Of a stretch of 64,000 nt of DNA, positions 51,446 to 55,134 are shown piece after piece. Both the position numbers and the translations under genes were made by a program. The stretch comes from an uncultured Saprospiraceae bacterium (GTDB taxonomy: Bacteria > Bacteroidota > Bacteroidia > Chitinophagales > Saprospiraceae). The notes below the pieces were generated by a model that was not told the DNA's origin, searched no databases, and saw only the letters and a list, made by a program, of their open reading frames with translations. The first letter of the stretch is position 1. Every line of letters begins with the position of its first letter. The stretch is from assembly GCA_937928405.1 (NCBI GenBank), contig CALFWZ010000156.1, positions 1 through 64,000 of the forward strand. Reading direction: 5' to 3'.

Positions 51446-51861
51446 CTTTTAATATGATTAATAATTTTCAAGCAAAAAATAAGTTGGAAGTTAAAGAAAT
51501 TGATCTCGAAAACAAAAACTTAAGGTTGTCTCTTTAGTGTTCAAAAACATGATGAGGATAATTGGTTAGCAAATAATAATATTCTTCAAATTATTAACAA
51601 ACGAATTCCTTCAAATATTTACGGTTGAATTTAAAGACGAATATCTAATAATATAATTTCAGTAATATTAATGGAATATACTATTATACTTTTGTGAAAG
51701 AAATACTTCATGATGATCTTAATTTCGATGAAAAATCATAAAAAGGCTCAAGTATTTTAAATTTTTATTTTAAATTTTTTCTTTTTTGCCAAATAAAACA
51801 CTATAATTGTGAATGCTTAGTCTTAAGTGTTCTGCAAAAAATATAAAAAGCCAAATAAAAC

Positions 51862-51951
51862 TACCTTTCGTGTTTTTTTAAGCTATATTGTTAGGCGAAT
51901 ACCGAAAAGCCTTAAAGTTTACTTGATTTCCAGTGTCTGTCACACATGGTC
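51862..51951 (+). promoter_or_regulatory. Conserved leader, copy 1
   Basis: 90-bp block differing at 3 positions from 53756-53845; contains TTAGGCGAATACCGAAAAGCCTTAA and CCAGTGTCTGTCACACATGG potential stem-loops. Confidence 0.75.
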
Positions 51952-52028
51952 GTGGTATTCTTATGGAAATGATTTATTAATGGTTAAACTTTTAAACAGA
52001 GTAGGCTCATTTCTAAATATTTTATTTT

Positions 52029-53405
52029 ATGAAAATTAACACACTATTTAAGACGTTTTTAATGACGTTATTCCTCTTCTTGGGGACATTCCAAATCCAA
52101 GGCCAAATCATTACCGGCCCTATTCCTATTAGCTTAGCACCTTGTGCAGGGATTACCGTAGATAGACAAGTCTGTAATCGTGATGGCACAGTGACCATCT
52201 ATTTTAGAGTAGACAATAACTCTGGCTCAACAGTTACTTTAGTTAATGTACTTGATGGTACTACCGTTGTTGGTACTTCGACTACTCCAATCCCTCCAAA
52301 TTCAACAGGGTCCCACGTCTATACTTATACAGGAGCTACTCCAAATTCGATTCAGTGTTTTAACCTTTACCTTTTCAACGATCGAGGCGGATGTTGTCAT
52401 CGTAGAGTATGTGTTAGAGTCCGGGATTGCTGTGATTTACAAACTAGAGCTTTTGGCCGTGATGCAACTTGTCCAACTGGTCTAGGATCTGCCGGGATTT
52501 CAGTTTGGGGTGGTACACCTCCTTATACTGGGCAATGGACAAATACAACTACTGGACAAACTGGAAATATGAACATTGGTGGCCCAATATCTATTCTTCT
52601 TCCAAATCTAACGCCAGGTGTTTATACTTACTGGTTTATTGATGCAATGGGCTGTAGAGTTCAAGGAACCTTTACAATAGGTACTGATTTTGTCGGTGAT
52701 AATTGTTTGGACTTTGAAATACATGATACGGCAAGCGATTATGGATGGTCAAATGGCTTGCAGGATATATATGATGGTACAAGTGAGGTAGCAGCAACTT
52801 TAAACTTCTGCTTTACCACGGTATATGCTCCAGATCAATTAATAGTTAGAGTAAATAATCAGATAGTATTAGATTCAGGACCATGGTCAACGCTTGGAAC
52901 TGATAATGGAACTCCTACTGGTTCACATGGTACATGTTCGCCTAATCCATGGGGCCCACAGGGAGCCTTTTTTGGACAAGTTACTGTTCAGCCATGTGAT
53001 GTAATCGATATTGATGTAGATGTAGAAGTTTGTAATGCAGGAGGTGTTGGATGGACTTTAGATGTTTCTTGTGGTCGACTTGATTGTGATAATGATGGTT
53101 CATCTGCACGAGGAGGTGCAGAAGAGCGAGGAGCAAGTGGTCGTTCCGACGATACGAATCTAGGCAGTGCAGGATCATTCAAGCTCTTCCCGAACCCAGT
53201 AACTGATGTATTAAATATTACAAATATCAATCAGAATTATGCGAAGGTTAGAGTATTGGATGGTACAGGTCGAACTATGATGCTTGATAATTCAGGTGAG
53301 ACTAATCTACAAATGGATGCAAGTGCCCTTCAATCAGGTGTTTACTTCGTAGAAATCACAGATGACGAGGGTAACAGAGTCGTTGAGAAATTTATCAAAT
53401 TATAA
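52029..53405 (+). CDS. Secreted protein with T9SS type A sorting domain (paralog 1)
   Basis: Signal peptide; Cys-rich N-terminal domain; C-terminal FKLFPNPVTDVLNITN...SGVYFVEITDDEGNRVVEKFIKL. Confidence 0.9.
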   Translation: MKINTLFKTFLMTLFLFLGTFQIQGQIITGPIPISLAPCAGITVDRQVCNRDGTVTIYFRVDNNSGSTVTLVNVLDGTTVVGTSTTPIPPNSTGSHVYTYTGATPNSIQCFNLYLFNDRGGCCHRRVCVRVRDCCDLQTRAFGRDATCPTGLGSAGISVWGGTPPYTGQWTNTTTGQTGNMNIGGPISILLPNLTPGVYTYWFIDAMGCRVQGTFTIGTDFVGDNCLDFEIHDTASDYGWSNGLQDIYDGTSEVAATLNFCFTTVYAPDQLIVRVNNQIVLDSGPWSTLGTDNGTPTGSHGTCSPNPWGPQGAFFGQVTVQPCDVIDIDVDVEVCNAGGVGWTLDVSCGRLDCDNDGSSARGGAEERGASGRSDDTNLGSAGSFKLFPNPVTDVLNITNINQNYAKVRVLDGTGRTMMLDNSGETNLQMDASALQSGVYFVEITDDEGNRVVEKFIKL

Positions 53406-53450
53406 TAAATTAAGTTTATTTTAATTTCAAATAAATTCTTTTTTTGAATA

Positions 53451-53488
53451 AACTGTCTCATAAGTTCTTTACTTATGAGGCAGTTTTT
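53451..53488 (+). terminator. Rho-independent terminator
   Basis: AACTGTCTCATAAGT tcttt ACTTATGAGGCAGTT TTTT. Confidence 0.92.
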
Positions 53489-53755
53489 TATGTATGAATC
53501 ATAGAATAATTATTTGGAAAATGGTCAACCAAATTCAATACATGATTTTTTTTAGCATTATTTTATGACTCCTTTGTGAAATTATTGTGAAACGAATAAG
53601 TCAATATTAATCTGTTCTAGAGTAGAAAAATGAAGGAGCTTTTTAGCATTACTAATTTTTATATTGAAATATTCTTTATTGCAAAATAAAAACATTATAC
53701 TTGTGAGTGTATAAACACAAATATTCTACAAAAAATATATAAAGCCAACTAAAAG

Positions 53756-53845
53756 TACCTTTCGTGTTTTTTTAAGCTATAGTATTAGGCGAATACCGAA
53801 AAGCCTTAAAGTTTACTTGATCTCCAGTGTCTGTCACACATGGTC
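53756..53845 (+). promoter_or_regulatory. Conserved leader, copy 2
   Basis: 90-bp block differing at 3 positions from 51862-51951. Confidence 0.75.
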
Positions 53846-53921
53846 CTGATATTCTTATGAAATTGATTTATTAAATGGTTAAACTTTTAAACAGAGTAGG
53901 CTCATTTCAAAATTTTATTTT

Positions 53922-55067
53922 ATGAAAATTAACACACTGTTTATGATGTTGTTCTTATTTTTAGGAACACTTCAACTTCAAAGTCAAATCAGCACTGGTC
54001 CCATTGATCCCGTCAGAGCTTGTGCAAGCATTTCTGTCATGGATCAAGTTTGTAATGAGGATGGTACCGTGACGATTTCTTTTAGGGTTACCAATAACAC
54101 AGCTTCAACCGCAACGTATGTAAATGTCTTCGCTGGTTCTACGTTAGTTGGTTCCTCCAACTCACCGATTGGACCATATTCAACTGGTGTGGCACTTTAC
54201 ACCTATACTGGTGCAACTCCAGGTACCGTACAATGTTTTGAAATTTACCTCTATAATAGAAGAGGAAGAATTTGTCGACAAAGAGCTTGTGTAAGAATTC
54301 AAAATTGTTGTACTGCAACCTGTGATGATTTTACTTTTACATCTACCGCAAATAATAATTTTAACATTGGCGTACCAATAGTTTCTAATGTTACGGCATC
54401 TATAGGAGTCACTCTTGATGCGCTTAGGGTGCCTGATTCAGTATGGGTAACGGTAAATAATGTCACGGTCTTAGGTTTTTCAGCTGGTGCCCCAGTATGT
54501 CCTGGTCCTACAGGGTTAGTCGTTGGGCCACAATATTTTACCGTCCAACCTTGCGATGTAGTAGTATTTAATGTGTTGGGTGATCATTGTAACCTGGCAG
54601 CTAGTTATTGGGAATTGTATGTTGAATGCAGACCGCGTAGATTGACCAGTGGAGGTGCAGGAGATATAGGGAAAGGTAATGTGGTTACAAATCCTTACAG
54701 CCATATGTCAGAAGCTGAATTAATCGAGACTGAAAGGAGTTTACTTGGCTTGCCTTCACAAGAGCAAGCGGATCTAAATTCAGAGGATGCTGATAGCGGT
54801 TCTGCTGAATTAGGTGCAACTACTGGAGCCCTCAAGATCTTCCCGAATCCTGTAAATGATGTATTGAATATCACTAACTATAATCAAGAGATTAATTATT
54901 CAGAGGTAAGAGTAATAGACGGCGCAGGTCGAACTATGATGCTTCAGAATATGTCAGGAATGCTTGATTTACGAATGGATGCAAGTGCACTTCAATCAGG
55001 TATTTACTTTATAGAAGTCACAGACGATGAGGGTAATCGAGTCGTCGAGAAATTTATAAAATTATAA
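53922..55067 (+). CDS. Secreted protein with T9SS type A sorting domain (paralog 2)
   Basis: MKINTLF.MLFLFLGTLQLQSQI N-terminus and LKIFPNPVNDVLNITNYNQ...EVTDDEGNRVVEKFIKL C-terminus shared with paralog 1. Confidence 0.9.
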   Translation: MKINTLFMMLFLFLGTLQLQSQISTGPIDPVRACASISVMDQVCNEDGTVTISFRVTNNTASTATYVNVFAGSTLVGSSNSPIGPYSTGVALYTYTGATPGTVQCFEIYLYNRRGRICRQRACVRIQNCCTATCDDFTFTSTANNNFNIGVPIVSNVTASIGVTLDALRVPDSVWVTVNNVTVLGFSAGAPVCPGPTGLVVGPQYFTVQPCDVVVFNVLGDHCNLAASYWELYVECRPRRLTSGGAGDIGKGNVVTNPYSHMSEAELIETERSLLGLPSQEQADLNSEDADSGSAELGATTGALKIFPNPVNDVLNITNYNQEINYSEVRVIDGAGRTMMLQNMSGMLDLRMDASALQSGIYFIEVTDDEGNRVVEKFIKL

Positions 55068-55098
55068 CTAAATAATTTTATTAAAGATAAATTTTTAG

Positions 55099-55134
55099 AT
55101 AGGGTAGAAGCATTGCTTCTGCCCTATTTTTTTT
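55099..55134 (+). terminator. Rho-independent terminator
   Basis: ATAGGGTAGAAGCA tt TGCTTCTGCCCTAT TTTTTT. Confidence 0.9.

Follow-up and report, generated by a model that had tools for sequence, protein, structure and literature searches.

The 64,000-nt stretch of Saprospiraceae DNA analysed here (the window) carries two paralogous genes preceded by almost identical leaders, which raises the question of what these leaders are and why they are so alike. Gene 1 (52029..53405; this and all features below lie on the + strand) encodes a 458-aa secreted Cys-rich protein, and gene 2 (53922..55067) its 381-aa paralogue. Both proteins end in a T9SS type A sorting domain (PF18962 at 3.1e-14 together with TIGR04183 for gene 1, PF18962 at 2e-13 for gene 2), in line with an earlier note, made from the letters of the sequence, that had described two paralogous T9SS genes. 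Each gene has its own terminator-like hairpin followed by a T run, with 16 pairs after gene 1 (53450..53486) and 15 pairs after gene 2 (55097..55129), and the two are thus probably single transcription units, each with its own leader.

We first considered the extent of the likeness. Only 3 of 90 positions distinguish 51862-51951 from 53756-53845, exactly as the earlier note had it, and the second identical block that it placed before the ATG is indeed there, 33 nt long in both leaders, TGGTTAAACTTTTAAACAGAGTAGGCTCATTTC being identical in copies 1 and 2. Over the 169-nt leader of gene 1 (51860-52028), identity to copy 2 reaches 93% (E 2.6e-66); the genome contains no other close match to it except a 28-nt piece on contig 68, which sits upstream of a third paralogue (L003). 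The hairpin 25-mer occurs just twice in the 64-kb window, even when 3 mismatches are allowed, and never in shuffled sequence. The N-terminal domains of the two proteins share 61% protein identity and 66% nucleotide identity, with only 12 of 39 fourfold sites identical; their synonymous sites are therefore near saturation, and the leader stands far above the conservation expected of neutral DNA in this domain. The sorting domains (53180-53405 and 54830-55067) are more alike at synonymous sites than the N-terminal domains (81% nucleotide identity, 16 of 23 fourfold sites identical), a contrast between coding sequences that suggests patchwise exchange between the two paralogues. The earlier claim that the leader is more conserved than the proteins thus holds for the N-terminal domain, the sorting domain being intermediate.

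An Rfam scan identified the two blocks as parts of a single known motif: block 1 holds the hairpin of the DUF805b RNA (RF02914) and block 2 its 3' strand, AGAGUAGGC, the two matching the 5' and 3' parts of the family in the correct order, as separate matches of 23.3 and 14.4 bits, respectively. The hairpin, P1 (51893..51912 in copy 1, RF02914 positions 2-25, E 9.4e-5; 53787..53806 in copy 2, also 23.3 bits), contains the AGGC/GCCT pairing pointed out previously and the loop GAAT-ACC-GAAAA, which ends in the CYGAAAA of the family; AGGCGAATACCGAAAAGCCT aligned to RF02914 without mismatched pairs. Downstream, the AGAGUARGN strand is present in both copies as AGAGTAGGC, at 51998..52006 (partial RF02914 match 51986-52007) and at 53893..53901 (partial match 53881-53902), 22 and 20 nt before the ATG; this spacing and the sense orientation agree with the class, whose median distance is 24 nt. 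No Rfam cut-off is reached anywhere in the window, and neither half attains the RF02914 gathering score of 35.6 bits, because the halves are separated by an inserted arm: the linker between them measures 86 nt in copy 1, 87 nt in copy 2 and 81 nt upstream of the contig-68 paralogue, outside the range of 3-18 nt found in the 120 class elements described below. Given this split, sub-threshold match and the arm, we term the window leaders an arm-bearing DUF805b-related variant, not placed within the curated family limits. That they are a DUF805b-type structured RNA appears to us highly probable.

The same genome harbors three intact DUF805b elements over the cut-off elsewhere; behind one of them lies another element in tandem, ahead of a gene that has a relative with a TM2 domain at locus L072. 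A near-identical counterpart devoid of the arm, AGGCGAATACCGAAAAGCCTTTAACAGAGTAGG, is found in another genus (L058; 46.8 bits), and in two other genera plain DUF805b elements precede homologues of the window protein; at L030-L032, which hold the closest homologues of the protein, no such element is seen. More broadly, of 148 family genomes, 88 have DUF805b at E<=0.001 and 63 have it over the cut-off, as do 27 of 149 phylum genomes, with zero matches in 14 control genomes in the family and phylum runs alike, and it lies upstream of many unrelated genes. Rfam types RF02914 as Cis-reg, a candidate cis-regulatory RNA, and our literature searches on DUF805 or DUF805b found no paper in the collection searched. 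RF02913, guessed to be a sister family, is pemK and irrelevant here.

To describe the class, ~110 further loci were gathered and 120 elements were picked by the anchors GAAAA ... AGAGTA and P1 pairing, with no condition set on the loop triplet or on the three bases after AGAGTA. Nearly all come from family genomes, and four are the ordinary elements of this genome, both tandem copies being counted. Note that GAAAA and AGAGTA cannot vary in this set, since the search demanded them; both are also in the Rfam consensus. The loop triplet NCY pairs with the RGN that follows AGAGUA: all three pairs form in 117 of the 120 elements, 97 of them strictly Watson-Crick, whereas random re-pairing of the same elements yields on average 63 (at most 77) for all pairs, and 41 (at most 54) for strict ones. 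Sliding the partner by 1-3 nt leaves only 0-2 elements paired, and permutation within genomes yields a mean of 50 strict Watson-Crick cases (maximum 64) against 80 observed. The pairs seen include GCC/GGC, UCC/GGA, ACC/GGU, CCC/GGG and CUC/GAG, and such covariation indicates that the DUF805b motif is an H-type pseudoknot. The pseudoknot is established here from the class, and may have been annotated for DUF805b before. In the window, the loop triplets ACC (51901..51903 in copy 1; the homologous 53795..53797 in copy 2) and the GGC of the 3' strand form two of the three Watson-Crick pairs, the first being an A.C mismatch; all three form in the contig-68 leader (ACU/AGU). Outside the helices, several positions show strong conservation, among them the G that follows the P1 5' arm (96%) and the CY preceding GAAAA.

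We then examined the arm itself, which consists of a helix, P2, and a hairpin, P3, in place of the normal 3-18-nt linker. It spans 51914..51992 in copy 1, with P2 formed by AAAGTTTA (51914-51921) and TAAACTTT (51985-51992), and 53808..53887 in copy 2 (P2 53808-53815 / 53880-53887). The ends of the arm pair with each other in all three arm-bearing leaders, as AAAGUUUA/UAAACUUU in the window and as AGUUUG/CAAACU in the contig-68 leader, where an A-U pair of the window copies is changed to G-C. In a single sequence, P2 alone is not beyond chance (5-13% of shuffles); it carries weight because the helix recurs in the third paralogue. P3 (51930..51949 in copy 1, CCA-GTGT-CTGTC-ACAC-A-TGG; 53824-53843 in copy 2) corresponds to the CCA-GTGT/ACAC-TGG pairing of the earlier note, with a 1-nt bulge. 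All three leaders can form it with one and the same geometry, namely three pairs, four pairs, one bulge on the 3' side and a five-base loop, and in the contig-68 leader three pairs are changed on both sides, i.e. compensatory changes. A strictly Watson-Crick P3-like hairpin arises in 0.4% of dinucleotide shuffles of that arm. P3 is within the minimum-energy fold of the arm in copy 2 and in the third paralogue, copy 1 slightly preferring another fold of the centre.

Run over 395 family genomes, the present one among them, a covariance model of the two window copies recovers the contig-68 leader at 47.1 bits, with an alignment that skips P3, and no other match at E<=0.05. Sought by pattern and covariance model, the arm is absent from the 394 other family genomes; the one extra match to the arm pattern (G081) turned out to be two tandem plain elements. 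For all five arm-bearing sequences, a fold with P1 and the closed arm that leaves the pseudoknot strands free is 0.2-4.7 kcal/mol less stable than the unconstrained minimum. Left unconstrained, the minimum-energy structure of both window copies has the 3' strand paired to the arm. Capture of AGAGUAGGC by the 5' strand of the arm, as a switch, was considered and kept as a lead only, as 17% of shuffled arms do as well and the pairing is not conserved in the third paralogue. With a pseudoknot-free folding model, the folding energy of the leaders is no better than that of shuffled sequence (z -0.29 and +1.79), and folding energy was thus left out as support.

Does the identity of copies 1 and 2 itself speak for function? 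A recent copying event, by gene conversion or by duplication of the leader with the first codons, has close to an even chance of having contributed to it, and the identity would then by itself be silent on function. The near-identical block extends into the first codons and then stops, the sorting domains, with 16/23 fourfold sites identical, look younger than the N-terminal domains with 12/39, which makes patchwise exchange plausible, and the contig-68 paralogue has arm spacers quite unlike those of copies 1 and 2, which nearly match each other. As the spacers differ freely in that paralogue, gene conversion or recent duplication, the alternative given in the earlier note, remains a candidate cause of the identity. 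It leaves unexplained, however, why the leaders match DUF805b, why their distance to the ATG is fixed and why a separate, old paralogue has the arm with compensatory changes; the two accounts can both hold.

Overall, that the leaders as a whole are a structured cis-regulatory RNA is likely. This reading, put forward in the earlier note, is supported by the two DUF805b halves, the covariation of the pseudoknot and the compensatory changes in the arm; homologues at unrelated genes and covariation, whose absence the note had named as evidence against it, were both found. Against this reading stand the scores below the Rfam cut-off, the A.C mismatch at the first pseudoknot pair, a folding energy like that of shuffled sequence, a minimum-energy fold in which the arm occupies the 3' strand, and the lack of the element at L030-L032. 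What the earlier note had not recognised is the pseudoknot, and that the two blocks belong to a single motif into which an arm is inserted.

Arms at this position are not confined to the window type. A pattern scan of GTDB species genomes returned four Prevotella-type loci (L154-L157), with the same P1, the same 3' strand and an arm at the same point of the linker, and, GTDB-wide, no arm-bearing leaders of this pattern beyond these. Their pseudoknot is GCU/GGC, their arm is unrelated in sequence to that of the window, and their downstream gene looks DUF2589-like (by eye) as opposed to the T9SS cargo of the window. The two distinct sequences among the four loci fold alike, with changes that mostly preserve pairing. 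The arm of these loci is ~86 nt long and has a conserved core, CATATCC...GGTATG.

Compared to known systems, the window leaders share with the DUF805b RNA (clan CL00115) the AGGC/GCCU hairpin, the loop NCYGAAAA, the 3' strand AGAGUAGGN, the order of the parts and the place before the ATG, and differ from it by the 86-87-nt arm in place of the 3-18-nt linker, the score below gathering and the A.C mismatch at the first pseudoknot pair. The preQ1-I and SAM-II riboswitches are small H-type pseudoknots with translational control. The window RNA resembles them in the size of its core, the pairing of a loop with a strand near the start codon and an A-rich loop; unlike them, it has no Rfam match to these families, and its targets suggest no single metabolite.

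An ORF of at least 30 aa starts within ~130 nt after the element in 117 of the 120 cases, at a median distance of 24 nt. The products are diverse and mostly exported-looking, including T9SS cargo, lectins, peptidases, lipoproteins and lanthipeptide-type precursors. With a stricter, crude rule, export signals were scored in 66 of 90 targets compared to 28 of 63 background ORFs, a difference that is suggestive only; a first signal-peptide heuristic was dropped for its too high background (30 of 48 window ORFs).

How might such an RNA act? Most Bacteroidota genes are translated without Shine-Dalgarno initiation, and in this phylum a pseudoknot with its end 20-30 nt upstream of the AUG suggests control of ribosome landing. 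We infer that the element is transcribed as a leader, acts on translation and responds to a trans-acting factor. Each leader would be a cis-acting DUF805b-type RNA, a small H-type pseudoknot just before the start codon, in which P1 would display the loop NCYGAAAA and the loop triplet would pair with the RGN of AGAGUA-RGN, ~20-30 nt before the AUG. In the window genes and the contig-68 paralogue, the self-closing arm (P2 and P3) takes the place of the short linker and would bring the pseudoknot halves back together, possibly adding stability or a second contact. Binding of a small ligand or of an RNA-binding protein would then form or dissolve the pseudoknot, which would alter access to the A/U-rich region where ribosomes land and thereby set the translation of the secreted proteins. 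The leader RNA is probably an mRNA switch or a protein-binding site setting surface-protein output; for translational control that depends on a ligand or protein in particular, we consider the odds somewhat favorable.

A broader proposal can be made, with more doubt than trust on our part: DUF805b could be a widespread Bacteroidota pseudoknot switch by which one signal governs exported products and some phage genes, with the linker serving as a docking point that has more than once received an unrelated arm, which gives a second input or tuning domain, as in the two window leaders. If true, T9SS cargo, lipoproteins, lectins and lanthipeptide-like precursors would be jointly controlled, and with a switch of this kind the secreted products of a major phylum would have a control point in common. 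In any case, the present locus adds to DUF805b a covariation-supported pseudoknot, a precise start-codon spacing and a set of targets with many exported proteins and peptide precursors, and the arm-bearing variant beside an almost identical arm-less one offers a basis for designing probing and reporter tests.

The pseudoknot could also be constitutive and ligand-free, a stabiliser of the mRNA 5' end or a translation enhancer protecting highly expressed mRNAs of secreted proteins. The diversity of the mostly exported-looking targets, which do not form one pathway, and the shortness of a structure placed near the start codon speak for such an element. We nonetheless regard it as unlikely: the conservation described above for several positions outside the helices exceeds the need of a plain stabiliser, and tandem copies are more typical of regulated elements. 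That the block acts at the DNA level, as a promoter or operator whose double-stranded form is recognised by a transcription factor common to both genes, is very improbable: the conserved block of copies 1 and 2 does begin ~30 bp upstream of the hairpin, but this stretch is absent from the third paralogue, the motif is sense-oriented at a short and narrow distance from the ATG in the elements examined, and, from one unrelated gene to another, the loop triplet changes together with its partner in the strand so that pairing is kept, which is not predicted for a DNA operator.

Under the preferred reading of a cis-regulatory RNA, the stretch just 5' of the motif (51862..51892 in copy 1, matching its counterpart 53756..53786 in copy 2 except at 2 positions) is possibly a promoter or the 5' end of the transcript. 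A scan for sigma-70 promoters remained at chance level, and TAnnTTTG counts upstream of 117 elements are mildly raised near -40 to -11.

Several further arrangements of DUF805b were observed. Two head-to-tail elements lie upstream of the gene at four loci (L006, L072, L126 and L143); the L072, L143-like and L006-like proteins are related, with a TM2 domain in L072 and two others, and the tandem layout thus seems conserved with the gene. At five loci (L048, L077, L099, L124 and L132), the element precedes short precursor peptides of double-glycine, lanthipeptide-like or rSAM-RiPP-like type. Finally, DUF805b is present in IMG/VR viral contigs (L171, L174 and L176), upstream of a gene that looks ParB-like by eye.
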